23,676 bases of DNA, from IMG/VR virus record IMGVR_UViG_3300017769_000132, positions 1-23,676 of that record; one strand, 5' to 3'. The position numbers and the translations under genes were made by a program. The notes beneath the pieces were generated by a model. That model did not search any database. It worked only from the letters and a program-made list of their open reading frames with translations, and had not been told where the DNA came from. Of this stretch, positions 3,340 through 17,304 are shown piece after piece (position 1 is the first letter of the stretch; every line of letters starts with the position of its first letter). The DNA comes from a virus.

Positions 3340-3648
3340 ATGTCGGCAATCCGAACATTTACAGTCACAGTAGCCAACCCAGGCTCTGGTAATAGATATT
3401 ATATAGATGGTGTTTTACAGGAAACGGTAAACCTTGCAGAAGGTTATACTTATGTATTTAATTATCCTGCTGGTCATCCTTTTAAATTTTCGACTACTTC
3501 AGATGGAACACATTCAGGCGGAGTAGAGTATACGACAGGAGTAACACATAACAGTTCTACTAAAGTTACAATAGTTGTAGCAGATAGCGCACCACAACTT
3601 TATTATTATTGTTCTCTTCACCCATACATGGGTGGCCAAGCAAATACA
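3340..3648 (+). other. Cupredoxin-like domain coding region
   Basis: The domain covers residues 1-103. The candidate copper ligands are His46, Cys91, His94 and Met97. The surrounding strands (TFTVTVAN, YTYVFNYP, KVTIVVADSA) alternate as in a Greek-key sandwich. Confidence 0.5.
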
Positions 3649-4536
3649 GTATCTTCTGATTCTTGGGGTATGTTAAATTATGGGCATAATACTTGGGGCA
3701 GTCAAGATGACGTAGTAATTACTCTTACAGGATTATCAACAACAGCTGCCGTAGGAACACCAACAGCGTTTCATGAAACAGGTTGGGGTGCTGACACATG
3801 GGGATTTGAAGGTTGGGGTGGAGCAAATACCATAATAACTTTACCTGGTTTAACCGCGACTACAGCCGTAGGAGATTTAACTGCTGTAATAAGACCAGGT
3901 TGGGGTACGTTAAACTGGGGTGAAAATAGTTGGGGTGATGTTGAAGGAACAGAATTTACTTTAAATGGTTTAAGTTTAACAACAAATGTTGGAGAGCTTG
4001 CACCAGAAGATGTTGTAGGTTTAACAGGTTTAACAGCTACTACTACATTAAATTCTTTATCATCCATTACAACAGATGCTACATTTACGTTGTCTGGTTT
4101 AAGCGCAACTTCTACTGAAGGACTACTTACAACTGATGATCATTCAGTAGGTTTAGTAGGACTATCAGCAACAACTGCTGTTGGAACTATTATTCCAGAT
4201 AATGTAATGGGCTTAACTGCATTAACTGCTCTTCAAACTAACGTAGGATCGTTTACCATATCTTCAGATCCAGTTACGGCTTTAACAGGAATAAGTGCTT
4301 CCACTACTTTAGGAACTGTTACTTCTTCACCGGTTACTATGGTAACCCTTACAGGTCAGTCTTTAACCTCTGCACTAGGCACAGTAACTACGATACAGGA
4401 AACTAATGCCTCTTTAGTAGGTCTAGGATTATCTGCTACAATAACATTAAATAATGTAGGAATATCATTTCCAGGTACATACGGAAGAATTATACCTAAA
4501 ACAAGCACAGGGTATACTAAGATAAATCCAGCATAA
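3340..4536 (+). CDS. Tail repeat protein with N-terminal cupredoxin-like domain
   Basis: This 398-residue protein has three parts. Residues 1-103 look like a cupredoxin-type beta sandwich: His46 in NYPAGHPFKFS, then Cys91, His94 and Met97 in YYYCSLHPYMGG. The order H...C-x2-H-x2-M matches type 1 copper ligands. Residues about 108-200 hold Trp-Gly-rich turns (NTWG, GWGADTWGFEGWGG, GWGTLNWGENSWG). From about 130 to 373 a 'GL(S/T)ATT..VG' unit recurs ten times, each separated by acidic or Thr-rich linkers. The C-terminus is basic. Marine phages commonly carry similar N-termini in tail-fibre-region proteins. Host-binding spike or fibre is inferred; copper binding is a prediction. The gene ends just before an internal promoter. 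Confidence 0.6.
   Translation: MSAIRTFTVTVANPGSGNRYYIDGVLQETVNLAEGYTYVFNYPAGHPFKFSTTSDGTHSGGVEYTTGVTHNSSTKVTIVVADSAPQLYYYCSLHPYMGGQANTVSSDSWGMLNYGHNTWGSQDDVVITLTGLSTTAAVGTPTAFHETGWGADTWGFEGWGGANTIITLPGLTATTAVGDLTAVIRPGWGTLNWGENSWGDVEGTEFTLNGLSLTTNVGELAPEDVVGLTGLTATTTLNSLSSITTDATFTLSGLSATSTEGLLTTDDHSVGLVGLSATTAVGTIIPDNVMGLTALTALQTNVGSFTISSDPVTALTGISASTTLGTVTSSPVTMVTLTGQSLTSALGTVTTIQETNASLVGLGLSATITLNNVGISFPGTYGRIIPKTSTGYTKINPA
3730..4458 (+). repeat. Ten degenerate 'GLSATT..VG' protein repeats
   Basis: Units start near residues 131, 170, 210, 230, 253, 273, 293, 316, 338 and 360 of the gene at 3340, about 20-40 residues apart. They share Gly-Leu-Ser/Thr-x-Thr-Thr followed by Val/Leu-Gly. The DNA is not a clean tandem repeat, so the repetition is old or kept by selection on the protein. 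A beta-solenoid or string of small strands on a fibre shaft is plausible. Confidence 0.6.
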
Positions 4537-5851: not shown

Positions 5852-6856
5852 ATGCCAATATTAGGATCAAGAGGGGCAGCGTCAGTAAAAGCTTTTGGTT
5901 TCACAGGCGGACCTGCAAAAGGTTTAATTAACGCTACAGGTGGAACTATTACTTGTGATGGTGATTATAGAATTCACACATTTACAGGGCCAGGAACTTT
6001 TTGTGTAGCCTGTATCTGTGCGTGTGTACCTGCTCCAACAAGAAAAGTTGATTATTTAATTTTAGGCGGTGGTGGCGCCGGAGGCCAAACAGGTAGATCT
6101 GGTGGCGGCGGAGCTGGAGGTTTTAGAGAATCTCACGAAGTTCCAATCTCTGGATCATACACAGCAAGTCCGGTAGCAACATCTAATTCTCAAACAATCG
6201 CAGCAGGAGGATATCCTATTGCAGTCGGTTCAGGTGGATCACCTGCTAACCCACCAACAGTTGCTCCAAACACAACAGCGTTTGGAATTTCTACAACTGG
6301 AGGAGGACAAGGAGCTCAAGAATGGAATCCAGGACAACGTCCAGGAGGAACAGGTGGATCTGGAGGCGGCGGTGGAAACGAAGCCGGTTCAGCGTCAAAC
6401 TCTGCTGGAAGTGGTAATGCTGGAGGATATTCTCCACCTGAAGGAAATCCAGGCGGTGGTGGAAGTGGAAGTCCCGGGGGACCGTGGTACGGAGCTGGAG
6501 GCGGAGGCGGCGGTGCTGCAACGTCAGGTTCTGGAGCACCCTCTTCTTTTAAAGGTGGTAATGGTGGTGTAGGTCACGGAACAGCAATTAGTCCCGAAGA
6601 CGGAACACCAGGACCCGATGGAGCATTAAGATATTTTTCCGGTGGCGGTGGTGGTAAATCACAAGCTGCTTGTGTACCTACTCCTATACGAGGAACAGGA
6701 GGATACGGAGGTGGCGGAGGCCAACCTGGTTCTCAAGTTTGTGGTATGAGTCCAGTATGTGTCGCTGTACCTGTAGGTGAAGATGGAACAGGTGGCGGAG
6801 CAGCATTTGGAACAGGCGCTGCAGGCGCTGTAATTATAAGGTATAAATTTAAATAA
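5852..6856 (+). CDS. Glycine-rich tail adhesin-like protein
   Basis: This 334-residue protein has an N-terminal part (GGTITCDGDYRIHTFTGPG, about 30-48) and a VDYLILGGGGAGG strand that match a marine-phage family whose usual form is 'GG..T..G.Y..H.FT..GTF....' followed by 'V.YL.V.GGGGGG'. Residues about 72-320 are dominated by Gly tracts with scattered Pro (RPGG, PPEGNPGGGG, DGTPGPDG). Such Gly-rich regions can fold as bundled polyglycine-II helices, as known for the T4-like phage S16 adhesin. Odd points are a Cys cluster, FCVACICAC (about 50-58), and more Cys at about 276 and 300-306. It probably tips or decorates the fibre. It overlaps the next gene by one base. Confidence 0.65.
   Translation: MPILGSRGAASVKAFGFTGGPAKGLINATGGTITCDGDYRIHTFTGPGTFCVACICACVPAPTRKVDYLILGGGGAGGQTGRSGGGGAGGFRESHEVPISGSYTASPVATSNSQTIAAGGYPIAVGSGGSPANPPTVAPNTTAFGISTTGGGQGAQEWNPGQRPGGTGGSGGGGGNEAGSASNSAGSGNAGGYSPPEGNPGGGGSGSPGGPWYGAGGGGGGAATSGSGAPSSFKGGNGGVGHGTAISPEDGTPGPDGALRYFSGGGGGKSQAACVPTPIRGTGGYGGGGGQPGSQVCGMSPVCVAVPVGEDGTGGGAAFGTGAAGAVIIRYKFK
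6065..6811 (+). repeat. Polyglycine-rich coding tract
   Basis: This covers residues about 72-320 of the adhesin-like protein. Gly runs of three to five recur with Ser, Ala, Pro and Asn between them. The DNA is GGA/GGT/GGC-rich and therefore much higher in GC than the surroundings, which is explained by the amino acids encoded. Confidence 0.7.
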
Positions 6857-7293
6857 TGGCTAACTTTGCAAAAATAGATGACAACAACGTTGTTCTTACT
6901 GTATTACATGTAGACGATAAAGACTGTCTAGATGAAAATGGAAATGAATCTGAAGCAGTGGGTCAAGCTTATTTAGAAAAGCATAATAATTGGCCAGCTA
7001 ATAAATGGATTCAAACTTCAAGAAATACTATTCATGGAGTACATGCATTAGGCGGAACTCCTTTTAGAGGACACTTTGCTGGAATAGGTTTTACATGGGA
7101 TTTAGAAAACCAACAATTTTTTCCACCCAAACCAAATTATCCATCTTGGATAAAAAATTTAACTATATCAGATTGGGAATCTCCAGCTGGACCTAAGCCA
7201 GAACAAACTGAAGCTATGGATACAGACAATACACAATGGGTTTGGAGTGAAGAAAACCAAGCTTGGGAAGTTGTAGATAGCTCTACTCTTTAA
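6856..7293 (+). CDS. Conserved fibre-associated protein of marine phages
   Basis: The 145-residue protein opens MANFAKIDDNNVVLTVLHVD, followed by DENGNESEAVGQAYLE, KWIQTS, then FAGIGFTWD and FFPPKPNYPSW. Its C-terminus has two Trp-containing strands (QWVWSEENQAWEVV). This order is characteristic of a small family found beside tail fibres in cyanophages and pelagiphages, usually 'MA.FA.LD..N.V..V..V'; the function is not settled. A chaperone or minor fibre part is possible. It overlaps the adhesin stop (TAATG). Its own stop overlaps by 4 bases the stop of the convergent gene on the minus strand, with no terminator hairpin visible. Confidence 0.65.
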   Translation: MANFAKIDDNNVVLTVLHVDDKDCLDENGNESEAVGQAYLEKHNNWPANKWIQTSRNTIHGVHALGGTPFRGHFAGIGFTWDLENQQFFPPKPNYPSWIKNLTISDWESPAGPKPEQTEAMDTDNTQWVWSEENQAWEVVDSSTL

Positions 7294-7829
7294 TAACAAA
7301 CATCACCAGCATTAACATACGTCAAAGTCTGAATATAATTTAGATGAGAATTATTTTTGTTTTCAATATAATATGATAGCGTAGCTGGAAACATAACAAA
7401 TTTATTTGTTTTTAAATCTACCGTCCAGGTTTTATTTTTTTTTCTATTATCATCGTATGTAATAATTATTTTACAACTACCTGGATCTATTTCTACTCCA
7501 TACAAACACACCCAATCAGGAGAAGCTTTAAGATTAAAAGGATTTACTTCAAGTATAGGTTTTGATATTTCATTTCTTTCATAATATTTAGCATAAGGAT
7601 GATGTCCATCTCCTCTAGTAATAAGATAGTTATGGTCAACATGCATATATTCTCTTATAAAAGTTTCAAGTCTATCTCTTGTTTTATAAAATTTATCCTG
7701 AACATCTTCATAGTAATGTGAAATAGTTATGTGTTTAACCATTTCATCTTTTTCAATATGCCATTCTTTAGGCATATTTACATCACCTACAAATAAAGGG
7801 GTATCTGTTAATATGTGTTTTTTAATCAT
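7290..7829 (-). CDS. Degenerate double-stranded beta-helix (2OG-oxygenase-like) protein
   Basis: In this 179-residue protein the C-terminal half reads like the core of phage 2OG-Fe(II) oxygenases: DWVCLYGVEI (about 105-114), CKIIITYDDN, TWTVDLKTNKFVMFPATLSYYI (about 134-155, in two strands), then a last strand IQTLTYV. The FPATL turn is normally followed by the distal iron-binding His; here the residues are Ser-Tyr-Tyr. No HxD is found at the expected place before the GVEI strand. So it is probably a non-catalytic or altered-metal relative, perhaps a partner of the active enzymes. It is the last gene of the minus arm and overlaps the carbamoyltransferase by 8 bases. The fold call is moderate. 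Confidence 0.4.
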   Translation of the reverse strand: MIKKHILTDTPLFVGDVNMPKEWHIEKDEMVKHITISHYYEDVQDKFYKTRDRLETFIREYMHVDHNYLITRGDGHHPYAKYYERNEISKPILEVNPFNLKASPDWVCLYGVEIDPGSCKIIITYDDNRKKNKTWTVDLKTNKFVMFPATLSYYIENKNNSHLNYIQTLTYVNAGDVCY

Positions 7830-9453
7830 CTTTCATCACAATCTTTTCTTCATCTACAAAATATATAGCATCTAACGAACTATTTTTCAATGTCAGTAAT
7901 GCATCTTCTTGAGTCTGAACTAAGGCTTCTCCTGCTAAATTAAAACTGGTGTTTAATAATACCGGACATTTTGTATCCACATAAAATTGTTTTAATAATT
8001 TATATAAAAAACCTTCAGAAACTGTTTGTACTCTGCATGTATTATCTACATGCACAACTCCAGGAATTTTAATTTTAGGTAAAACATTAAAATTTATTGT
8101 CATGTAAGGACTTTCTTTTAGGTCTAAAGTTTCAAAATATTTTTTAAATTCAGTTTTTAAAACAACTCCTGCAAAAGGTCTGTACCATTCTCTTTTTTTA
8201 ATATTGTTAACAATTTGTTTAGCATCAGAGTGTCTTGGATCAAATAATATACTTCTATGTCCCAATGCTCTAGGTCCTGCTTCAGGGTTTCCTTCAAATA
8301 TTGCTACACTTTTTTTATCTGCTAGTAGTTTAGATATTTCTTTTATATTAGATTTTTTACCTATCTTTAATTTTTCTTTTTTATAGTAGTGGTAAAAATT
8401 ATCTGTACATGGATGTACAAGTTTTTTAGTCTCTTCTTTATATTTCAACATTGCGGCCCCTATAGGTACACCTGTATCATCTGCAACTGGTTCAAAATAA
8501 AAATTAACATTTGGTAAGTTTTTTAAATAAAAATTATTAGCTACTACATTTAAAGCGTAACCTCCCACCATACAAACATTTTTAATACCTGTGCTTTTTA
8601 CATATTTTTTTATTAAACGTAAAGATTGTTCCTGTGTTTCTGTTTGTACTAACCTAGCTTTATCTGCATAAAAATTATAATTAGTTTTATTAATGTCTTT
8701 GGTTATAGAGTTTTCACAATTATAAAAACACACACTATCATCTTTTAAAAAACTAAATTTATTTGAATCAGGTATGTTGTTTACAAAAAGTTTTTCATTA
8801 TTAAGTTTTTTTCCATAGGAAGCAAGTCCCATTGTTTTGCCGTTTTCTAAAACATGTTGACCAATTAAAGTAGTAGCAGCTTCGTACACTCTAGTAATAC
8901 CTAATGAATTATTAGAAGAAATATCGCAGTCAGGATAATATTGTTTTAATGAATTTAAAATATTATATTTTTGAGATTCTTTATTTAATTCTAACCAAAA
9001 GTTTTTTGAAATACATTCAAGTTTATTTTTATTTGCTACAAAAACACTTTCACTTTCTCTAGCCACAGATTGTCCATCTTTAAAAAAAATGCTTCCATTT
9101 CTATCTATTACAAAAACTAAAGTTTTTTTAAATTTACTATTATGATAAGCTAAACTAGCATGACATTTGTGATGTAACAAAGAAGAATAATTTTCCATTT
9201 CTATATTAAATTTTTTATTAACATAGTTTCTCCACACATGTTCTATGTCTGGCTCACAGTTAGAGGGAGTTAAATAAAGCACATGATCTACTTTACCTAA
9301 CTTTAAATTTTCATATAGCTCCATGGATTTAAAAGGATGTTTGTCTCTTTTCTTACGAGTCAATCTTTCTTCTTTACAAAAAAATTCTATCTTACCATTT
9401 AACAAACTACATACTGCACTATCGTGTGCAATATTAAATGCTAGAATTCTCAT
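7822..9453 (-). CDS. O-carbamoyltransferase, NodU/CmcH/TobZ family
   Basis: With the ATG at 9453 the protein is 543 residues, a usual length for the family. These enzymes make a carbamoyl-adenylate from carbamoyl phosphate and ATP and pass the carbamoyl group to a hydroxyl. The N-terminal Kae1-like domain shows HHKCHASLAYH (about 94-104, with the HxxxH metal site), FVIDRNGS, MGLASYGK (about 208), VGGYALNVVANN (about 296) and PVADDTGVPIGAAML. The C-terminal domain shows AGPRALGHRSIL (about 392-403), YRPFAG, RVQTV and LLNTSFNLAGEALV. All main signatures are present, so it is probably active. A TTG six bases upstream is possible, but the ATG overlaps the preceding stop as TAATG and is preferred. 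Substrate unknown. Confidence 0.9.
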   Translation of the reverse strand: MRILAFNIAHDSAVCSLLNGKIEFFCKEERLTRKKRDKHPFKSMELYENLKLGKVDHVLYLTPSNCEPDIEHVWRNYVNKKFNIEMENYSSLLHHKCHASLAYHNSKFKKTLVFVIDRNGSIFFKDGQSVARESESVFVANKNKLECISKNFWLELNKESQKYNILNSLKQYYPDCDISSNNSLGITRVYEAATTLIGQHVLENGKTMGLASYGKKLNNEKLFVNNIPDSNKFSFLKDDSVCFYNCENSITKDINKTNYNFYADKARLVQTETQEQSLRLIKKYVKSTGIKNVCMVGGYALNVVANNFYLKNLPNVNFYFEPVADDTGVPIGAAMLKYKEETKKLVHPCTDNFYHYYKKEKLKIGKKSNIKEISKLLADKKSVAIFEGNPEAGPRALGHRSILFDPRHSDAKQIVNNIKKREWYRPFAGVVLKTEFKKYFETLDLKESPYMTINFNVLPKIKIPGVVHVDNTCRVQTVSEGFLYKLLKQFYVDTKCPVLLNTSFNLAGEALVQTQEDALLTLKNSSLDAIYFVDEEKIVMKDD

Positions 9454-10085
9454 TACCAATTTTTTTTATTTTTAAACCAGAACGGTAGACCAACGTGAGG
9501 TCTTTTATCAAACATGTTGTCCTTAGCACCTTTACGTTTTGCATTATTATAGTGAAAGAAAATTTGAACACAGTCTTCTTTTCCTTTGAAGGGTTCTCTC
9601 CAATGTTCTAAATCTTCTCCTTTGTAAACCAACATATCTCCAACTTTTAAATTTATTTTTTTTCCTTTCATTCCTTCTTTTCCAGAAGGTTCAATATAAA
9701 TAGGCCAAGGGTCACCCCCTAAGTAAAGTGTTGTAGATATCTCACAACTAAATCTGTCTTTGTGTCTTTTAAGAATATCTCCTGTTTTATAAGATCTTAG
9801 AAAAGTGTAGTTTGGATATAGTTTTAAACCCGTAGCTTTTTCCATAAGAGGTTGAAGCTTTAACATTAAAGTTTCCATAGGAATATCTGCATAAGCAACA
9901 AAAGTGTTTGGAACTTGTTTGTCTCCCCATCTTCCAAATGCTGTTTCCATGGGAGATATGTATTGACGATTTCGCATAGTTGTAAAACATTGTTTTTTTA
10001 CTACGACATAGTTATATAAAAATAAAGCTAGTTCCTTAGAAACAGCTTTTTTAATAACAATGTATTTGTCTTTTTTAAAACTCAT
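9453..10085 (-). CDS. 2OG-Fe(II) oxygenase, prolyl-4-hydroxylase-like
   Basis: Residues about 89-180 of this 210-residue protein form the double-stranded beta-helix: YPNYTFLRSYKTGDILKRHKD with the HxD pair His108 and Asp110, the ISTTLYLGG strand, VGDMLVYKGEDLEHW with the distal His161, and CVQIFFHYN as the last strand. Basic residues Lys167/Lys169 or Arg163 could hold the 2OG carboxylate. The N-terminus (MSFKKDKYIVIKKAVSKELA) matches a marine-phage P4H-like family I know. It would hydroxylate a protein or small molecule using 2-oxoglutarate and O2; substrate unknown. It overlaps the upstream gene by ATGA and the carbamoyltransferase by TAATG, so the three are translationally linked. Confidence 0.8.
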   Translation of the reverse strand: MSFKKDKYIVIKKAVSKELALFLYNYVVVKKQCFTTMRNRQYISPMETAFGRWGDKQVPNTFVAYADIPMETLMLKLQPLMEKATGLKLYPNYTFLRSYKTGDILKRHKDRFSCEISTTLYLGGDPWPIYIEPSGKEGMKGKKINLKVGDMLVYKGEDLEHWREPFKGKEDCVQIFFHYNNAKRKGAKDNMFDKRPHVGLPFWFKNKKNW

Positions 10086-10684
10086 GAAAAATACCTAACA
10101 GGATGTTTTAATTTAATATTTGCTGCCATACTTATTCTTGTACCTTTACTTTTAAAAGAGTTTACTACATGACGAAGATTAGCTGGGAATATATACATAT
10201 CCCCTTCTACTGGTTTTGCTTCTACATCTGTTATACAATGTGGTCTGTCTTCTCCGTAAATAAATTTAATACCACCGGGTCCGGCTGTGTCTCGACCTAC
10301 GTAATCATCACTTTCTTTTTTTAAAGAATCAGGAATTTGTAAATATAGTACACAAGAAAAATCACCATCATGTGTATGTGGTGGATTAGAATCACCTGCT
10401 TTCATAATATTTACCCAACAGTACTCAACAATGTAATCTTTACTTGGCAAGGTTGTGTTATAGTAATGTTCATAAAAATTAAAATAACTGTTAAATTGTT
10501 TTTCAACATTTTTTTTAAATTCTTTTATATCATAAGAATAAGTTTCATTAATATGAGAAGCTAAATGTTTATTGTAATTATATTCTTTTTTAATTTTTTT
10601 AAGCATGTCTTTATACTTATCTACTTTTGTTTTAAATAGTAGTGGACCAAAATAAAAAAACCTATTTTGTTGTTCACTAGACAT
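10082..10684 (-). CDS. 2OG-Fe(II) oxygenase-like protein (PF13759-like family)
   Basis: I start this gene at the ATG of MSSEQQNRFF (10684), giving 200 residues. It overlaps the upstream stop by 8 bases; the 18 extra residues of the longer frame lie inside the upstream gene. Core features are YCWVNIMKAGDSN, then PPHTHDGDFSCVLYL (His103/His105, the ligand-bearing turn of this family), GDMYIFPANLRHVV (distal His172) and RISMAANIKL (Arg183, 11 residues on, for 2OG). A 16-residue acidic/aromatic N-terminal stretch (FFYFGPLLFKTKVD) is also typical. Phages often encode such proteins without known substrate. Probably active; the exact first-ligand pair is uncertain. Confidence 0.7.
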   Translation of the reverse strand: MSSEQQNRFFYFGPLLFKTKVDKYKDMLKKIKKEYNYNKHLASHINETYSYDIKEFKKNVEKQFNSYFNFYEHYYNTTLPSKDYIVEYCWVNIMKAGDSNPPHTHDGDFSCVLYLQIPDSLKKESDDYVGRDTAGPGGIKFIYGEDRPHCITDVEAKPVEGDMYIFPANLRHVVNSFKSKGTRISMAANIKLKHPVRYFS

Positions 10685-11336
10685 GTTCCTGCTTTCTAAC
10701 TGCCTGAAGATTAAAGTGTATAAATCTAAAAGGATCAATACCCAGATCTACTGAAAACTCATGTTCAAGATAAGCCGGAAAAAGTATAAGGGTTCCAGGT
10801 TTTGGTCTATAGTGAATAGATCCGCTACCCATTGAAACTTCGTTAGGATTTTTTAATGGTAACATTGACATCGTTTTAGCAACTCTAGGATCTTTAAGTA
10901 TTGGATGAGAAGTATGCTCAGAGCTTTTTAAAAAATAGAAACCACTAATATGGTTATCATAATGTATATGAGCGTTATGATATCCCGCACCTTTTTTTGA
11001 AAATTCTTGTACCCACATTTCAGTCCACGTCATGTCATAAGTAGTCATGTCATAACCTAAGTGATCCATTATTTCTAATGATCTTCTTTCAACATATCCT
11101 TGAATGTCAGCAAATGCAGGAAGACCAACTAAAGGCCCGGAGTGATGAGTCATGCCTAGATCTCCAATTTTTTTACCAAGAGCTTTATCTCTCTCTTTAC
11201 TTAATATTTTATTTTTTCCTTTTGCATATTTTATATGCGGTTCTGACGCTTCATTTAATTTGTCTAATAATTCTGGTAACTGAGTTACATAGACTGGTGT
11301 TTGAAAGTATGTTTCAAAATGTATATTTTCGTTCAT
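10677..11336 (-). CDS. 2OG-Fe(II) oxygenase-like protein (PF13759-like family)
   Basis: In this 219-residue protein the core reads WTEMWVQEFSKKGAGYH, AHIHYDNHISGFYFLK (His123, His125 on the ligand turn), PGTLILFPAYLEHEF (distal His192) and FRFIHFNL (Arg204, 12 residues on). 'H.H....SG.YYL ... G.L.LFP..L.H' is the signature of this putative 2OG-Fe(II) oxygenase family. The N-terminal FETYFQTPVYVTQL also fits ('lF.TPvy..'). It starts within the ATGA overlap with the upstream gene and has a good AGGAGG six bases ahead, inside that gene. It is a paralogue-type neighbour of the gene at 10082, but the two are strongly diverged. Confidence 0.75.
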   Translation of the reverse strand: MNENIHFETYFQTPVYVTQLPELLDKLNEASEPHIKYAKGKNKILSKERDKALGKKIGDLGMTHHSGPLVGLPAFADIQGYVERRSLEIMDHLGYDMTTYDMTWTEMWVQEFSKKGAGYHNAHIHYDNHISGFYFLKSSEHTSHPILKDPRVAKTMSMLPLKNPNEVSMGSGSIHYRPKPGTLILFPAYLEHEFSVDLGIDPFRFIHFNLQAVRKQEHV

Positions 11337-11956
11337 CTAAATGGACCTCCTAAATTCCATATTACTAATGAGTATCTTGTACCCTTAGTTACTGGTTTTA
11401 CTCTATGCCAAAGAAAACTTGGAAATATAATAATTGTTCCTTTAGGAACATCGGATAAAGTAATTATATTTTTTTTATTTGTATTAGTCGGGTTAGCTAT
11501 GTTTATTTCTAATTCTCCTCCTTGGTAATCTTCGGGATTAGATAAAGAACAAGTTACAGATAACTTTCTTATTTTGTTATGTTTTTCTAATTCGTTTGGA
11601 GCTTTATAAGGTTTTTTCCAAGAATCTACATGCCAAGTATAGTGTTGATTAAGTTGATATTTAGTAAACTGACAAGCCTCGCTATAGTCCCATTCAAAAT
11701 TCCAATTAGCATCTTTGTTAGCTTGGTTTATATAGGGGTGTATTTCTCTGTATATCCAAGAACCATCCATCCATATAATATTAGAATCTCGTGTTTTTTT
11801 TAAATCTTTTATAGCCTTAATATTTGTAGAATGAGGTTTATGATTACCCGTCCAACCTAATAGCTCTTCTTTAGTTTTAGAATGTTCAATTAAATCATCA
11901 CAAAACTTAGGTGTTAAGACCGATTTAAATACCCAACAATAGTTTTCTAGTTCCAT
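11333..11956 (-). CDS. 2OG-Fe(II) oxygenase, PHD/PiuC-like
   Basis: In this 207-residue protein all expected active-site residues are in place. YTWHVDSW gives His109 and Asp111, RKLSVTCSLSNPEDYQGGELEI is the conserved strand-turn of PHD-type enzymes (in two parts), KGTIIIFPSFLWHRV gives His184, and Arg194 lies exactly 10 residues later (GTRYSLVIW). The N-terminal NYCWVFKSVLTPKFCDDLI is the usual helical cap. It is the first gene of the minus arm, 58 bases from the divergent plus arm. The start is preceded only by a weak GAAAGAG. It is the clearest of the seven oxygenases; PHD-type enzymes hydroxylate Pro or other residues, but the substrate here is unknown. Confidence 0.85.
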   Translation of the reverse strand: MELENYCWVFKSVLTPKFCDDLIEHSKTKEELLGWTGNHKPHSTNIKAIKDLKKTRDSNIIWMDGSWIYREIHPYINQANKDANWNFEWDYSEACQFTKYQLNQHYTWHVDSWKKPYKAPNELEKHNKIRKLSVTCSLSNPEDYQGGELEINIANPTNTNKKNIITLSDVPKGTIIIFPSFLWHRVKPVTKGTRYSLVIWNLGGPFR

Positions 11957-12014: not shown

Positions 12015-12344
12015 ATGACCATATTAGAAAGATTTGAAAGGTATTTAACTAACGTAGAGCGACCCACTAAACAAAGCTCTTGGAATATTGCAGGTATTCT
12101 AAAAGATAAAAATGCTTTTTTTAAATTTGATGTTAGGGATCTTACTAAAGCTTCTAATAATAGAGGTTTTAAAAAAGGAAGTTTAAAAAGTAAAGCTGAC
12201 AAAATGGTATTTGAGTTTAAAGATCAATGGGTTATTTTAGATATGGAAGAGCTGAATGAATACGTAAAGAATAGCGAAAGTAAAGATTTTGAGTTAGGGG
12301 AAATTATACCTAAACTTGATTGGAATATGCTTATAATAAAATGA
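12015..12344 (+). CDS. Small conserved marine-phage protein, function unknown
   Basis: This 109-residue, charged, soluble protein has FERYLTNVERPTKQSSWNIA, FFKFDVRDLTKASN, then KADKMVFEFKDQWVILDMEE (about 60-79) and a last stretch ending PKLDWNMLIIK. The 'KADKMV.E..DQWVILD.EEL..Y..' pattern is one I recall from cyanophage and pelagiphage hypotheticals, often near structural genes. I do not know a function. It leads the plus arm, so it is made first and could be a regulator, adaptor or scaffold for the enzymes that follow. The ATG has no good ribosome-binding site. Its TGA overlaps the next ATG (ATGA). Confidence 0.6.
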   Translation: MTILERFERYLTNVERPTKQSSWNIAGILKDKNAFFKFDVRDLTKASNNRGFKKGSLKSKADKMVFEFKDQWVILDMEELNEYVKNSESKDFELGEIIPKLDWNMLIIK

Positions 12345-12883
12345 AATTATTTTATAAAGAAGATAAAGATTTTTTATCACCAGAAGATAAACATACTTTA
12401 GATGAAATTACTCTACATGGATTCTTTCCTTTTTATTTACAAAAAAATACTATTGGAAAAGATAACAAACATTTTTTAAGTCACATTATTGTAGGCAGAA
12501 TAGAACAAAGAAAGAAAAATGATAAAGGTATTAACTCTAAATATGCAGATTTTTTTATAAAAATATTAAATCAATTTTGTAATAAAAATAAAATTAAATA
12601 TAAAAACATATTAAGATATTCTCTTAATGTAGCTTTTTATGATGGAGCAGATAAATCTGGAACACATGTTGATCATGACTTTCCACACAAACAATTGATT
12701 ATTTATCTAAATGATCCTATGGATATAAATTCACATACAGTTCTTTTAAATAAAAAAGAAGATAAGATTATAAAAAGAATTACTCCTGAAAAATTTAAAG
12801 GAGTTTGTTTTAACCAGTGTCCTCATTATATGGTTTACCCTAAAAGAGGTCACAGAATAATTGCAATAGCAACGTTTAATTAA
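12341..12883 (+). CDS. 2OG-Fe(II) oxygenase-like protein
   Basis: With the ATG at 12341 (ATGA overlap with the previous stop) it has 180 residues; a longer TTG-initiated frame from 12320 is less likely. Active-site residues are visible. SLNVAFYDGADKSGTHVDHD gives His109 and Asp111, followed by QLIIYLND. FNQCPHYMVYPKRGHR gives His162, with Arg172 exactly 10 residues on, and IIAIATF is the final strand. The N-terminal part (about 1-90) is Lys/Asn-rich and not recognisable. It belongs to the same broad superfamily as the minus-arm enzymes but is not close to any of them. The substrate is unknown; the next gene begins one base after its stop. Confidence 0.75.
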   Translation: MKLFYKEDKDFLSPEDKHTLDEITLHGFFPFYLQKNTIGKDNKHFLSHIIVGRIEQRKKNDKGINSKYADFFIKILNQFCNKNKIKYKNILRYSLNVAFYDGADKSGTHVDHDFPHKQLIIYLNDPMDINSHTVLLNKKEDKIIKRITPEKFKGVCFNQCPHYMVYPKRGHRIIAIATFN

Positions 12884-12884
12884 T

Positions 12885-13991
12885 ATGAAGATAACTATTT
12901 TAGGAAGAGGAAACGCTGGATGTATTTCTGCAATGCATTTTGCTCATTTTAAAAAACAATTAAATACAAAAATAGATATAGAACTTATCTATGACTCTAG
13001 TATTCCTCCAGTACCTACTGGTCAAGGAACTACGTTAAGTTTTCCAGAAAGATTGTTTGAAAATTTTGGAGCAAGTTACTTAACTAATTTTCCCTATACA
13101 ATTAAAACAGGTATTATGTATGAAAACTTTGGTAAGAAAAATAAAAAAATTTATCACAATTTTCCTTTAGGAACTTATGCTTTACACTTTGAACCTAAAC
13201 AATTTCAAGACTATGTGTGTAACAATTTAAAAATTAATTTTAAAGAAACAGATGAAAACATACATAACTTAGATAGTATTGATTCTGACTATATAATAGA
13301 TTGTAGAGGAACACCTAAAAATCTAGATAACTATGATAAATTACACAATCCTTTAAACACTGCATTATTGGGTAGTCTTCCTAAAAAAGAAAATGATGTG
13401 TTATGGACCAGATCTATCGCCCACAACAATGGTTGGTGTTTTTATATTCCTTTACCTCAAAAAACTTCTCTAGGTTATTTATTCAACAAAAATATTACTA
13501 GTGTTGTAGATGCCAAAAAAGATTTTAAAAAAACTTTTAAAGTTACTGATGCAAAAGAATTTAGTTTTAATCAATACGTAGCAAAAGAACCTATAATAGA
13601 TAACAGGGTTTTATTAAATGGAAACAGGCTTTTCTTTTTAGAACCGTTAGAAGCTACAGCCATGGGAATGTATATACAAACTGCTAGGTTTTATTATGAC
13701 TATATATTTAATAATACTAGTAAATATCAAACAGGTTTAAATATTAAAGATCATGTTAATAAAGTACAAAATTTTATATTGTGGCATTATGCAAACGGTT
13801 CTACTTATAAATCTAAGTTTTGGAATCATGCTAAAAATATTTGGGATGAAAACAAAGATGAAGATTTTTTAAAACTTTTAAAAATTATAAAAGGAATGAC
13901 AAAAGAAGATATAGAAAATAGTGTACATACTTCTTTTAAATATGCTCAATGGAAAGAATGGAATCTTAAATTATGGCAAGATCAAGTATAG
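12885..13991 (+). CDS. Flavin-dependent (tryptophan-)halogenase-like protein
   Basis: The 368-residue protein is shorter than PrnA-type enzymes (about 530). Residues 1-17 (ITILGRGNAGCISA) form the GxGxxG FAD-binding fold. VPTGQGTTLSFPERLF (about 43-58) and TIKTGIMYENF (Lys74, matching the catalytic Lys region of PrnA-type halogenases) follow. NGWCFYIPLPQKTSLGY (about 183-198) aligns with the halogenase WxWxIP signature but has Phe186 for the second Trp. FFLEPLEATAMGMY (about 250-263, Glu256) aligns with the catalytic Glu/chloride loop. It could halogenate an indole or other electron-rich ring, or be a relative with another oxidation. A flavin reductase partner is not seen. Similar genes occur in marine phages. 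Confidence 0.75.
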   Translation: MKITILGRGNAGCISAMHFAHFKKQLNTKIDIELIYDSSIPPVPTGQGTTLSFPERLFENFGASYLTNFPYTIKTGIMYENFGKKNKKIYHNFPLGTYALHFEPKQFQDYVCNNLKINFKETDENIHNLDSIDSDYIIDCRGTPKNLDNYDKLHNPLNTALLGSLPKKENDVLWTRSIAHNNGWCFYIPLPQKTSLGYLFNKNITSVVDAKKDFKKTFKVTDAKEFSFNQYVAKEPIIDNRVLLNGNRLFFLEPLEATAMGMYIQTARFYYDYIFNNTSKYQTGLNIKDHVNKVQNFILWHYANGSTYKSKFWNHAKNIWDENKDEDFLKLLKIIKGMTKEDIENSVHTSFKYAQWKEWNLKLWQDQV

Positions 13992-14461
13992 AAATAATAG
14001 ATAATTTTTTACCGATAGATGTATTTAAAGATATACAGAAAAAAGCAATGGAGTTGCCCTACTTCTATACCCCTAATATTACATTTGAAAACAAAGAAGA
14101 TTATAATTTTTATTTAACTCATGTAGTGTATAATGACCATGCTCCTAATAGTCCTTTCTTTCAAGACATAAAAGTAATTATAGATAAAATAGGAAAAGAT
14201 TTATTTTTAAAAAGAATTAAAGTTAATTTTTATCCTAGAACAAATAAACTTATTGTTCATGATAAACACAGAGATAATAAAAAATCTCATAAAGGAGCTT
14301 TATTTTCTTTAAACACCTGTAATGGGGGAACTTACATTGGAGATAAATTTATTAACTCTGTAGAAAATAGAATGCTGTTTTTTGATCCAAGTAAATTTCA
14401 CCGCAGCACTAACTGTACTGATCAACGTGCAAGGTTTAATATTAATTTTAATTACTTTTAA
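13973..14461 (+). CDS. Small 2OG-Fe(II) oxygenase-like protein
   Basis: This 162-residue protein is compact for the superfamily. RIKVNFYPRTNKLIVHDKHRD ends the first ligand turn (His99-x-Asp101). Then come GALFSLNTCNGGTYIGD, RMLFFDPSKFHRS (distal His143) and RARFNINFNYF (Arg152 or Arg154, 9-11 residues on). The short N-terminus (IEIIDNFLPIDVFKDIQ) is a normal helical cap. It overlaps the halogenase-like gene by 19 bases, a strong sign of linked expression. This is a plausible direct partner of the halogenase-like enzyme. Confidence 0.7.
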   Translation: MARSSIEIIDNFLPIDVFKDIQKKAMELPYFYTPNITFENKEDYNFYLTHVVYNDHAPNSPFFQDIKVIIDKIGKDLFLKRIKVNFYPRTNKLIVHDKHRDNKKSHKGALFSLNTCNGGTYIGDKFINSVENRMLFFDPSKFHRSTNCTDQRARFNINFNYF

Positions 14462-14464
14462 CAT

Positions 14465-15070
14465 ATGATTCATAATTTATTTCCTACCCCTATCTATCAA
14501 GCAGATTTAAAAGAACCTATTTCAAATAAAATTTTAAATAATAAAGTTGTGTATAAAGAAAATAAAGGCAACAAAACTAGTGAGAATAATTATATTTTAG
14601 AACAACCTTTGTATTTAAATTTAAAAAAAGAATGCCAGTCCCACCTAGAAGAATATTACAAAACAATTATAAATACAAAAAATAATGTAACTCCTTATAT
14701 TACGCAATCTTGGTTAAATGAAACTAAAGAAAAAGGATATCATCACACACATAACCATCCCAATAGTATTATATCTGGTGTGGTATATTTTAATGCTGAT
14801 CCTAACAAAGATAGTATCAGAATATACAAACCTAAAATAGGACAGGATTATTCTTTACAATTTTTAATGTATCCTAAAGAATACAATGCATGGAATTCTC
14901 ATGATTTTGTACTTCCAGTAAGGTCCAATTCAATTATATTATTTTCTTCTTATTTATCACATTCCGTAGATACTAAGAATTCTCCTAATATTAGGACTAG
15001 TTTGGCTTTCAATAGTTTTGTAAAAGGTGTAATAGGTGATCAAGTTAATCTAGATTTATTACAAATATAA
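14465..15070 (+). CDS. 2OG-Fe(II) oxygenase-like protein (PF13759-like family)
   Basis: In this 201-residue protein, the start NLFPTPIYQADL fits the family ('lF.TPiy'). TQSWLNETKEKGYHHTHNHP (His96, His98 on the ligand turn), IISGVVYFN, SNSIILFSSYLSHSV (distal His166) and RTSLAFNSF (Arg177, 11 residues on) complete the signature. It is the third PF13759-like member of the cassette, after those at 10082 and 10677. It starts 3 bases after the previous stop, with a weak ribosome-binding site. It is the last cassette gene; the structural run resumes 17 bases later. Confidence 0.75.
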   Translation: MIHNLFPTPIYQADLKEPISNKILNNKVVYKENKGNKTSENNYILEQPLYLNLKKECQSHLEEYYKTIINTKNNVTPYITQSWLNETKEKGYHHTHNHPNSIISGVVYFNADPNKDSIRIYKPKIGQDYSLQFLMYPKEYNAWNSHDFVLPVRSNSIILFSSYLSHSVDTKNSPNIRTSLAFNSFVKGVIGDQVNLDLLQI

Positions 15071-15087
15071 CTATATAGTGTGATATT

Positions 15088-17304
15088 ATGCTACAAAAAT
15101 TAGGATTTTTACCAGGTTTTAATAAACAAGTTACATCTACCGGCGCTGAATCACAGTGGACAGGTGGTACAAATGTTCGTTTTAGATATGGCACACCTGA
15201 AAAAATAGGTGGTTGGTCTCAATTAGGGAACAGTAAACTAACTGGCGCAGCTAGGGGTTTACATCACATGGTAAATAAAACAGGTATTAAGTACTCTCTT
15301 ATCGGCACTAATAGAATTTTATACGTTTATACAGGAGGTGTTTATTATGATATACACCCTTTAGTTAATCCATTAGGTACAACTATTACAAATGGATTTA
15401 GCACAACTAACGGTTCACCTGTAGTAACTATTACTTTTCCAGCAGCACATAATTTTGAAACTGGTGACATTATATTATTTGGTGATGCTAGTACATTTGT
15501 TGCTATTACGGGATCTAATTTTGTTGCTGCAGATTTTGCTGATAAAAAATTTATGGTAACAGCAGTATCTGGAACAGCATTAACTATTACAATGCCTAGT
15601 AATGAAACAGGGGGAGGAGCAACTACTTCTGGAGGAATAACTTATTTTCAATATTATCATGTAGGACCACCTGATCAGGTTGGAGTATTTGGATGGGGTA
15701 TATCTCAGTACGGGGGAACAGCAAGTAGTCCTCAAACTACTACACTAGTTGGAGCATTAAATAATGATGCGTTTGGAACTGGGGGAACAGGAACTACAAT
15801 TAATGTAGCAAGCACAGCTAACTTTCCAACAGCAGGAACAAATTATATACAAGTAGGAACAGAAGAAATATCTTACACAGGAGTAACAGCTACAAGTTTT
15901 ACCGGAATTACTAGAGCAGTTAGAGGAACCACTAGAGCTTCGCATCTTAATGGTGCAACCGTAACTGATCATAGTAATTATTCTGGATGGGGTCAAGCAG
16001 CAGCGACCACGGATAAAGTTGCAGAACCTGGTATGTGGTCTTTAGACAATTTAGGAAGCACTGCTATTGCATTAATATTTAATGGTGAATGTTTTGAATG
16101 GAACTCAGATCTAACTAATGCTGTAAGAACAAGAGCAACAATTATATCTGGTGCACCAACTGCATCTAGAGATATGTTAGTATCTACACCCGATCGTCAC
16201 TTAGTTTTCTTTGGCACTGAAACAACTATTGGAGATAAATCTTCACAAGATGATATGTTTATAAGATTCTCGTCTCAAGAAAACATTAATGAGTATACAC
16301 CCACAGCTGAAAATAGTGCTGGCACACAAAGACTGGCCGCTGGATCACGGATCATGGGTGCTAAACTTGGTAGAAATGCACTTTACGTTTGGACAGATAC
16401 GGCTTTATTTACTATGCGTTTTGTTGGAACTCCATTTACATTTGCTTATGAACAAGTTGGTACTAACTGTGGATTGATTGGTAGGAATGCAGCTGTTGAA
16501 GTTGACGGAGCTGCGTATTGGATGTCTGATAATGGTTTTTTTAGATACACCGGTAAACTAGAATCTATGGACTGTTTGGTTGAAGATTATGTCTATGACA
16601 ATTTAAACACAACATCTAATCAAATGGTTTATGCGGGTATTAATAACTTGTTTGGTGAAGTTACTTGGTTTTATCCAGAGTCTGGTTCTAATATAAATAC
16701 ACAATCAGTTACTTATAGTTATTTAGATTCTACAGCTAAACGACCTATTTGGTTTGTAAATGCGAGTAGTTTATTTATTAGAACTACTTGGCAGGATTCT
16801 GCTGTGTTTGGTTTACCACATGCAACTCAATACGATGCAGGTGATGATGACTCATTTGATGTAGAAGGTAATACAGAAGGAATTACTTATTACTATGAAC
16901 ATGAAACAGGAGTTAATCAAATAAGAGGAGGAGTAACAACAGCTATTCCAGCTAACATTACCTCTGGTGATTATGATATTACACAAAAAGTTGTAAGAGG
17001 AGCAGCTACTAACATGGCTGATCTTAGAGGAGATGGAGAAAACATTATGAGAGTAAGTAGAATTATACCTGACTTTATAAATCAACAAGGAAATTCTATT
17101 ATACAATTAGATTTAAGAAACTATCCAAACGATGCAGCTGCTAGTTCATCATTAGGTCCTTTTACAATTTCTTCTACTACAACAAAAGTTGACACACGTG
17201 CAAGAGCAAGATCAATAGCTCTTACAATATCCAACACTGCAGTAGATACTAGTTGGAAATTAGGTACGTTTAGATTAGATATACATGCTGGAGGAAGAAG
17301 ATAA
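15088..17304 (+). CDS. Tail nozzle / packaged-DNA-stabilisation protein, P22 gp10-like (predicted)
   Basis: The 738-residue protein begins LGFLPGFNKQVTSTGAESQW, then GGTNVRFRYGTPEKIGGW. This opening is common to large tail proteins of marine podovirus-like phages and resembles P22 gp10-type tail-hub proteins. About residues 100-170 and 235-296 are inserted beta modules; the second is shared with the protein at 1275. A beta-propeller-like middle follows (WSLDNLGSTAIALIFNGECF; ALYVWTDTALFTMRFVG; GAAYWMSDNGFFRYTG). The end, RARARSIALTISN then SWKLGTFRLDIHAGG, is highly typical of the family. The ribosome-binding site is weak. Its stop overlaps the next ATG (TAATG). Confidence 0.65.
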   Translation: MLQKLGFLPGFNKQVTSTGAESQWTGGTNVRFRYGTPEKIGGWSQLGNSKLTGAARGLHHMVNKTGIKYSLIGTNRILYVYTGGVYYDIHPLVNPLGTTITNGFSTTNGSPVVTITFPAAHNFETGDIILFGDASTFVAITGSNFVAADFADKKFMVTAVSGTALTITMPSNETGGGATTSGGITYFQYYHVGPPDQVGVFGWGISQYGGTASSPQTTTLVGALNNDAFGTGGTGTTINVASTANFPTAGTNYIQVGTEEISYTGVTATSFTGITRAVRGTTRASHLNGATVTDHSNYSGWGQAAATTDKVAEPGMWSLDNLGSTAIALIFNGECFEWNSDLTNAVRTRATIISGAPTASRDMLVSTPDRHLVFFGTETTIGDKSSQDDMFIRFSSQENINEYTPTAENSAGTQRLAAGSRIMGAKLGRNALYVWTDTALFTMRFVGTPFTFAYEQVGTNCGLIGRNAAVEVDGAAYWMSDNGFFRYTGKLESMDCLVEDYVYDNLNTTSNQMVYAGINNLFGEVTWFYPESGSNINTQSVTYSYLDSTAKRPIWFVNASSLFIRTTWQDSAVFGLPHATQYDAGDDDSFDVEGNTEGITYYYEHETGVNQIRGGVTTAIPANITSGDYDITQKVVRGAATNMADLRGDGENIMRVSRIIPDFINQQGNSIIQLDLRNYPNDAAASSSLGPFTISSTTTKVDTRARARSIALTISNTAVDTSWKLGTFRLDIHAGGRR
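15790..15975 (+). repeat. Protein-level repeat module, copy 2 (in the gene at 15088)
   Basis: Residues about 235-296: TTINVASTANFPTAG, then EEISYTGVTATSFTGITRA and HLNGATV. It matches the module at 1668-1904 in order and spacing. Probably an immunoglobulin-like or small beta insertion on the virion surface. Confidence 0.55.

Follow-up and report, generated by a model that had tools for sequence, protein, structure and literature searches.

A compact, mostly viral clade of halogenase-like flavoenzymes with a changed tryptophan motif, with a member in the tail-side oxygenase island of a putative pelagiphage

The DNA analysed here, referred to below as the window, is a stretch of 23,676 nucleotides from a virus (IMG/VR record IMGVR_UViG_3300017769_000132, positions 1 to 23,676). 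An island composed of a carbamoyltransferase gene, seven oxygenase-type genes and the gene of a flavoenzyme lies between tail genes ending at 7293 and the structural gene starting at 15088 (Table 1). At the left end of its minus-strand operon, a protein of 179 aa (7290-7829, minus strand) gave no Pfam or PHROG match at 1e-3; relatives of this protein recur beside oxygenases in other loci.

Table 1. Genes of the island and of its two edges.
Feature	Coordinates	Strand	Basis and remarks
Glycine-rich tail protein; may be a substrate	5852..6856	+	Near left island edge; Pfam match below cut-off
Nol/NodU-like carbamoyltransferase	7822..9459	-	Pfam, PHROG
2OG-Fe(II)-oxygenase-type; PHROG label 'ferrochelatase'	9453..10085	-	Family alignment, invariant HxD...HxR
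2OG-Fe(II) oxygenase	10082..10738	-	PF13759
2OG-Fe(II) oxygenase	10677..11336	-	PF13759
2OG-Fe(II) oxygenase	11333..11956	-	PF13640
2OG-Fe(II)-oxygenase-like; PHROG label 'DNA endonuclease V'	12320..12883	+	HxD kept; directly upstream, ends one base before flavoenzyme ATG
Compact halogenase-like flavoenzyme	12885..13991	+	368 aa, ATG to end of stop; motifs, PF04820, PHROG, model fold, alignment
2OG-Fe(II)-oxygenase-like; PHROG label 'DNA endonuclease V'	13973..14461	+	HxD...H...R; directly downstream, 19-base overlap
2OG-Fe(II) oxygenase	14465..15070	+	PF13759
Virion structural protein	15088..17304	+	Right island edge; relatives; anchor for comparing relatives

With proteins of 023Pt_psg01, HTVC027P and HTVC023P, the structural protein at the right edge shares 39-45% identity. 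By this measure the window resembles a relative of the HTVC023P-type pelagiphages, with a related structural gene and an oxygenase island in the same place; in HTVC023P and 023Pt_psg01, oxygenase genes lie directly upstream of the related structural gene. The host is probably a SAR11 bacterium. Using the structural gene as an anchor, we obtained 79 loci, of which 31 had at least 5 kb upstream. At least one oxygenase relative was present in 30 of these 31 loci and at least three in 26, whereas any match to the flavoenzyme was found in three and a strong match in one (L141, same contig as L004). Of 88 viral loci with the flavoenzyme, 54 contained at least one oxygenase relative, and one or more relatives of the window's tail genes occurred in 69. 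In 36 loci a relative of an oxygenase or of the carbamoyltransferase lay no more than 250 bases away; neither oxygenase nor tail-gene relatives were present in 16. The oxygenase island is therefore steady among relatives, and the flavoenzyme is an optional member of it. Long phage flavin-dependent halogenases (FDHs) keep similar company, with 2OG oxygenases and carbamoyltransferases beside the long gene of S-SSM7, and 2OG oxygenases near the long FDH genes of P-RSM6, Sf-CH11 and P-SSM2.

Four of the seven oxygenase-type genes match Pfam 2OG-Fe(II) families. In the family labelled 'ferrochelatase', residues H108, D110, H161 and R163 are invariant in 18 of 18 rows; in the 'endonuclease V' family, H99 and D101 are invariant, H143 and R154 are kept in at least 90% of 18 rows, and 6 of the 18 members match PF13640 (best 5.9e-6). 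Searched against solved structures, the group profile of the former gave a Tet-like dioxygenase at a non-significant E of 0.072 and that of the latter no match. In a survey of HTVC023P-type phages, the neighbouring oxygenases are taken to be partners of a ferrochelatase (section 7 of PMC9599517). For the family of the window's 9453-10085 gene the alignment does not support a ferrochelatase, and what was published as a 'ferrochelatase plus oxygenase partnership' may, judging from the conserved residues, consist of two oxygenases. Genes in a like position in HTVC023P-type phages also carry the label 'ferrochelatase'.

The flavoenzyme matches the Pfam family Trp_halogenase (PF04820; E 1.8e-29, 103.3 bits against a cut-off of 21) and phrog_2928 'tryptophan halogenase' (E 6.8e-68). 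Its FAD site, GxGxxG, is present as GxGxAG at residues 7-12 (G7-R-G9-N-A-G12), and a profile alignment places K74 on the catalytic Lys (K79) and E256 on the catalytic Glu (E346) of PrnA. The initial annotation, which likened these three elements to those of FDHs, thus had both the correspondence and the residue numbers right. The signature that it had read as W-C-F-Y-I-P, with Phe for the second Trp, is indeed found at W184-C-F186-Y-I-P189, and W184 and F186 fall on the WxW positions of PrnA in the profile alignment. The flavoenzyme consequently lacks WxWxIP, a motif that certain FDHs, Bmp5 for example, are also described as lacking (PMC8407142). Its segment 251-259 reads F251-L-E-P-L-E256-A-T-A259. 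The motif FX[DE]PX[EFL], given as an FDH motif (PMC8407142), occurs there as FLEPLE (251-256), and the tunnel motif Fx.Px.Sx.G, reported in all active FDHs (PMC8407142), is changed at two positions, with A257 where it has Ser and A259 where it has Gly; Ala at 257 is also found in 9 of the 31 Trp rows of the 140-row alignment described below. In the VGE motif, Gln (Q47) takes the place of Glu, at the same position that is altered in the aligned PyrH E46Q structure. Other residues of note are N201, Y231, R241 and N245-G-N247.

A single-sequence structure prediction was useless (pLDDT 37.8), and an AlphaFold2 model built from a 66-row alignment was used instead (mean pLDDT 93.6, pTM 0.91). VIA-align was run with this model on Foldseek's best 1000 chains. 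Solved FDHs were the top matches and covered model residues 1-368: AbeH (Z 38.6, rmsd 2.9, 352 aligned), SttH (Z 38.5, rmsd 2.9, 351 aligned), PrnA (2ard; Z 34.9, rmsd 2.8, 354 aligned), MibH (Z 33.6, rmsd 3.0, 358 aligned) and VirX1 (Z 30.2, rmsd 2.9, 345 aligned). The comparison with crystal structures such as PrnA and viral halogenases, proposed in the initial annotation, therefore yields superposition over the whole length. The QhpG entry 7CTQ was not among the best 50 VIA-align rows, a placing that carries no weight. Sequence searches against solved structures gave a best E of 1.5e-12 with the single query and 5.8e-35 with a profile. In BFVD, two proteins clearly outranked the rest, one of 464 aa (the length of the long form in HTVC008M) and the other a phage 'flavin-dependent halogenase' of 393 aa.

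The flavoenzyme, estimated beforehand to be about 160 residues shorter than PrnA-type enzymes, is 170 aa shorter than the 538-aa chain of PrnA, and the loss is located at two places. In the middle, residues 87-129 face PrnA 91-205 in the profile alignment, a loss of about 90 residues; at the C terminus, model residue 368 aligns to PrnA 467 of 538, and the last 70 or so residues are absent. The tryptophan-binding cap region is missing. Neither published form of the Trp4 motif (PrnA 443-461) could be read in residues 330-368. Trp4 is described as a substrate-binding motif needed for Trp and missing in the non-Trp group C, and MHal2-4, without Trp4, are reported to act on indole and not on Trp (PMC8269204).

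To follow position 186 among homologues, we aligned 110 rows: the query, 23 viral relatives collected with patterns outside the motif, 11 relatives from phage records and 75 rows from scans. This position is Phe in 104 rows, Trp in five and a gap in one, in a set partly selected for Phe: one of the pair of patterns used in the two scans contains the Phe, and rows L038-L110 are no independent evidence for it. The unbiased sets confirm that the Phe is kept, as the initial annotation had asked, in 22 of 22 viral loci that cover the position (L025 ends earlier) and in 8 of 11 phage records, these 11 having been fetched out of 35; the three records with Trp are HTVC008M (464 aa), S-SRM01 (485 aa) and Campylobacter phage CP21 (399 aa). 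Position 74 is Lys in 107 of 107 covering rows (110 in all), and position 256 is Glu in 106 rows, Gln in three and a gap in one.

Addition of 30 long or cellular rows produced a 140-row alignment with 105 Phe, 31 Trp and four neither; two of the 31 Trp rows are duplicates (L111/L202 and L112/L203 are the same genes). No letter at 186 was available for L231 (unresolved frame) and L025, and 2 of the 17 cellular loci examined contained no ORF bearing the motif. Several residues of the flavoenzyme separate Phe rows from Trp rows: Asn247 (104/105 versus 1/31), Asn201 (103/105 versus 2/31), Tyr231 (102/105 versus 0/31), Arg241 (101/105 versus 0/31) and Gln47 (92/105 versus 0/31, the Trp rows having 28 Glu and 3 gaps). 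Phe186 is not an isolated change and goes along with changes at no fewer than five other clade-specific positions. The Trp is kept in the longer phage FDHs, among them VirX1, and in almost all cellular ones. Even in the long clade the second Trp can be replaced, since L211 (a genome in a gammaproteobacterial sample) has Phe in an otherwise long-clade enzyme and the second long gene of P-TIM40 (L237b) has Tyr.

For a maximum-likelihood tree, L015, L024, L025, L111, L112, L231 and L240 were dropped and rows at least 70% alike were thinned to 75. The 46 Phe rows split from the 29 others (27 Trp, L211 and the Tyr row) with a branch support of 100/100. Phe at 186 is thus the fixed mark of an old, deeply split, compact (about 360-410 aa) and mostly viral clade. 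The cyanophage S-SSM7 carries one gene of each kind, compact and long. The compact clade is abundant in marine viruses, with at least 587 relatives in the pattern scan. The compact form is seldom found in cells: a scan of one genome per species (84,980 species) found 10 relatives, most of them on contigs of metagenome-assembled genomes, and the clade profile matched 13 of 274 genomes of one class, where by score the compact form was present only in the BD1-7 genome at the centre of the set (431 bits versus at most 93 for the rest).

The closest known relatives are the short cyanophage genes annotated 'tryptophan halogenase' (prnA, T4-GC 212) in Sf-CH8, S-ShM2, S-MS29, S-SSM7, P-TIM40 and S-SCSM1, which share the clade, the length class, W-x-F, N-G-N and the Lys. 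They are 24-38% identical to the query over the match (22-38% across 35 records) and differ in their gene surroundings; in the short forms of S-SSM7 and P-TIM40, Gln replaces Glu256. The table of Sullivan et al. 2010 lists genes of 1104-1167 bp and of 1437-1593 bp together as T4-GC 212 (PMC3037559), and a review counts a halogenase-like gene in 20 of 153 cyanophages (PMC10452541). VirX1 of cyanophage Syn10 (PDB 6qgm), known for its open site (PMC8407142), is viral and has the same fold and the same Lys and Glu positions, but belongs to the long clade, with GWVWNVP containing both Trp, ESNG in the tunnel motif and 507 aa as annotated. The free-tryptophan halogenases PrnA, PyrH, SttH and AbeH match the fold over the whole length (Z about 34-39), yet keep both motif Trp, about 90 more internal residues and the tryptophan-binding cap. 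BrvH and other group C FDHs are, like the query, described as devoid of Trp4, with an open substrate site (PMC5945002, PMC8269204); BrvH differs in being full length with WxWxIP intact (PMC5945002). The lanthipeptide tryptophan halogenase MibH (PDB 5uao) matches in fold and offers, by its entry title, a precedent for a peptide substrate, but it is of the long type with a 541-aa chain.

Starting from the observed fold, motifs, clade and gene neighbourhood, we infer cofactor use, halide use and substrate as follows, a reading to which we give slightly better than even chances. The compact clade would be a mostly viral FDH branch of FADH2/O2 enzymes that relay hypohalous acid via Lys74, in a reshaped site, to an aromatic other than tryptophan, which may be protein-bound. 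A flavin reductase, presumably the host's, would supply FADH2; none is encoded in the window, as had been remarked (0 PF01613 matches), but the window is a linear fragment, so this absence says little. With O2 the flavoenzyme would form C4a-hydroperoxyflavin, and a halide, the bromide or chloride of sea water, would be oxidised to hypohalous acid. The latter would pass to Lys74 and, with Glu256, be delivered to an electron-rich aromatic ring. It is the Lys and Glu, kept (almost) without exception in an FDH fold, that argue for hypohalous-acid chemistry; the loss of WxWxIP and Fx.Px.Sx.G and the Glu to Gln change at 47 count against a plain halogenase, and the presence of FX[DE]PX[EFL] counts for one. 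Since the flavoenzyme lacks the tryptophan-binding cap and about 90 internal residues, its acceptor is probably larger or more exposed than free tryptophan; it may be an aromatic residue in a tail protein on which the 2OG oxygenases next door also act. Only the position of the gene suggests a protein substrate, and the 16 of 88 loci with neither oxygenase nor tail-gene relatives weigh against a tail protein. It is conceivable, though unlikely, that the clade represents viral protein-modifying enzymes which halogenate or oxidise an aromatic of their own tail protein, while the 2OG oxygenases of the island hydroxylate it and the carbamoyltransferase caps the hydroxyls, the receptor-binding tip being varied in this way. 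To our knowledge, a halogenated virion protein, if found, would be a first.

The initial annotation took the loss of the Trp pair as a sign that the protein may act on a different substrate, which the missing cap region favours, or perform another oxidation. The latter deduction is weakened by QhpG. The Trp pair as a block on oxygenation is a proposal (PMC10696468, PMC8407142), and QhpG, an enzyme of FDH-like fold with a protein-bound aromatic substrate, is described as a proven monooxygenase that hydroxylates peptidyl Trp; Trp181 and Trp183 lie in its counterpart of the HOCl tunnel, and the W183F mutant has lost nearly all activity (PMC7876137). Since QhpG keeps both Trp and yet is a monooxygenase, the pair cannot be the only switch between halogenation and oxygenation, and the Phe by itself does not predict oxygenation. 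A QhpG-like monooxygenase, in which a peptidyl aromatic meets the hydroperoxyflavin in the channel and is hydroxylated without halide, is nevertheless a real rival, if a rather improbable one. It would accommodate the second Trp to Phe, the Ser and Gly to Ala changes in the tunnel motif, the Gln at 47 and the oxygenase-type neighbours, and QhpG sets the example of a similar fold hydroxylating Trp within a protein (PMC7876137). The Phe of the compact clade is, on the other hand, not the state of QhpG, in which W183F is nearly dead (PMC7876137). The QhpG model NF049967 is weakly matched by 21 of 66 clade members (E <= 1e-3), but these matches are at superfamily level (best E 1.5e-6): the model matches everywhere below its cut-off, in 14 of 14 control genomes and in 184 of 185 others. 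Kinship of the compact clade with the QhpG family was rejected, as the model matches control genomes as well; the query gave no match to NCBIfam, this model included, at 1e-3 and stays below the model's cut-off of 240 bits. The conservation of Lys74 without exception also speaks against a monooxygenase; we know of no role for this Lys in hydroxylation.

An enzyme that halogenates a free small molecule (indole-, phenol- or pyrrole-like), serving an auxiliary pathway against host or competitors with the tail site as a cargo hot spot, seems improbable to us. VirX1, which is reported to iodinate many small aromatics (PMC8407142), would be its model; the optional presence of the flavoenzyme at the tail site fits it, as do the cyanophage homologues that adjoin other functions (major head, talC, gp33, thymidylate synthase). 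Against it stand the neighbours themselves, oxygenase-type genes and a carbamoyltransferase in a nearly constant island, and nothing in the window was recognised as a gene for making a small aromatic. Two lost FDH motifs would also suit a relative that has decayed or is non-catalytic and is retained to bind FAD or for a structural role. This is very improbable, being contradicted by open frames and a fixed Lys and Glu over more than 100 rows, and by dN/dS values of 0.095-0.127 against five relatives, which place the gene under purifying selection.

Members of the compact clade are already known, having been annotated 'tryptophan halogenase' in cyanophages since 2010. Our literature search returned, among the matches listed, no assay of a compact member and no paper on the clade as such, and the main text of the HTVC023P-type survey contains 0 occurrences of halogenase (PMC9599517). 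What is added here is that the clade is set apart, that a package of residues changes with it, and that its gene is an optional component of an oxygenase island beside tail genes. Its members are commonly filed as 'tryptophan halogenase' while being devoid of two FDH signature motifs and of the tryptophan-binding cap. They provide a natural experiment on whether the choice between halogenation and oxygenation depends on the second Trp of WxWxIP, for which S-SSM7, carrying both forms, offers a matched pair. The island also raises the idea of chemical modification of phage tail proteins.

Some additional observations concern tail genes and other FDH-like genes. The tail protein at 3340-4536 (plus strand) has repeated WG-rich stretches and matches phrog_708 (baseplate wedge) in part; inspection by eye also shows a cupredoxin-like C-S-L-H-P-Y-M. 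This Trp-rich protein was considered as a substrate and rejected, its Trp content being unlinked to the flavoenzyme (median per 100 aa of 2.14 in 11 loci with the flavoenzyme versus 2.60 in 21 without). In Actinomycetia phage DSL-LC01 (L240 1-4139), a gene annotated 'tryptophan halogenase' adjoins a glycosyltransferase, with a collagen triple helix repeat protein close by; the pattern used for the Trp motif had no match in this gene, and its motif was not recognised. The gene immediately after VirX1 in Syn10 (L229 3499-5091), annotated 'hypothetical protein', encodes a second FDH-like enzyme of 530 aa with GWVWNIP and EPLESTG, and tandem FDH genes are also present in P-RSM6 and P-TIM40. Finally, a BD1-7 clade bacterium harbours a compact W-x-F copy (L107 4682-5788) on a 121-kb contig, where the neighbouring genes look cellular by eye, making it a rare non-viral member.
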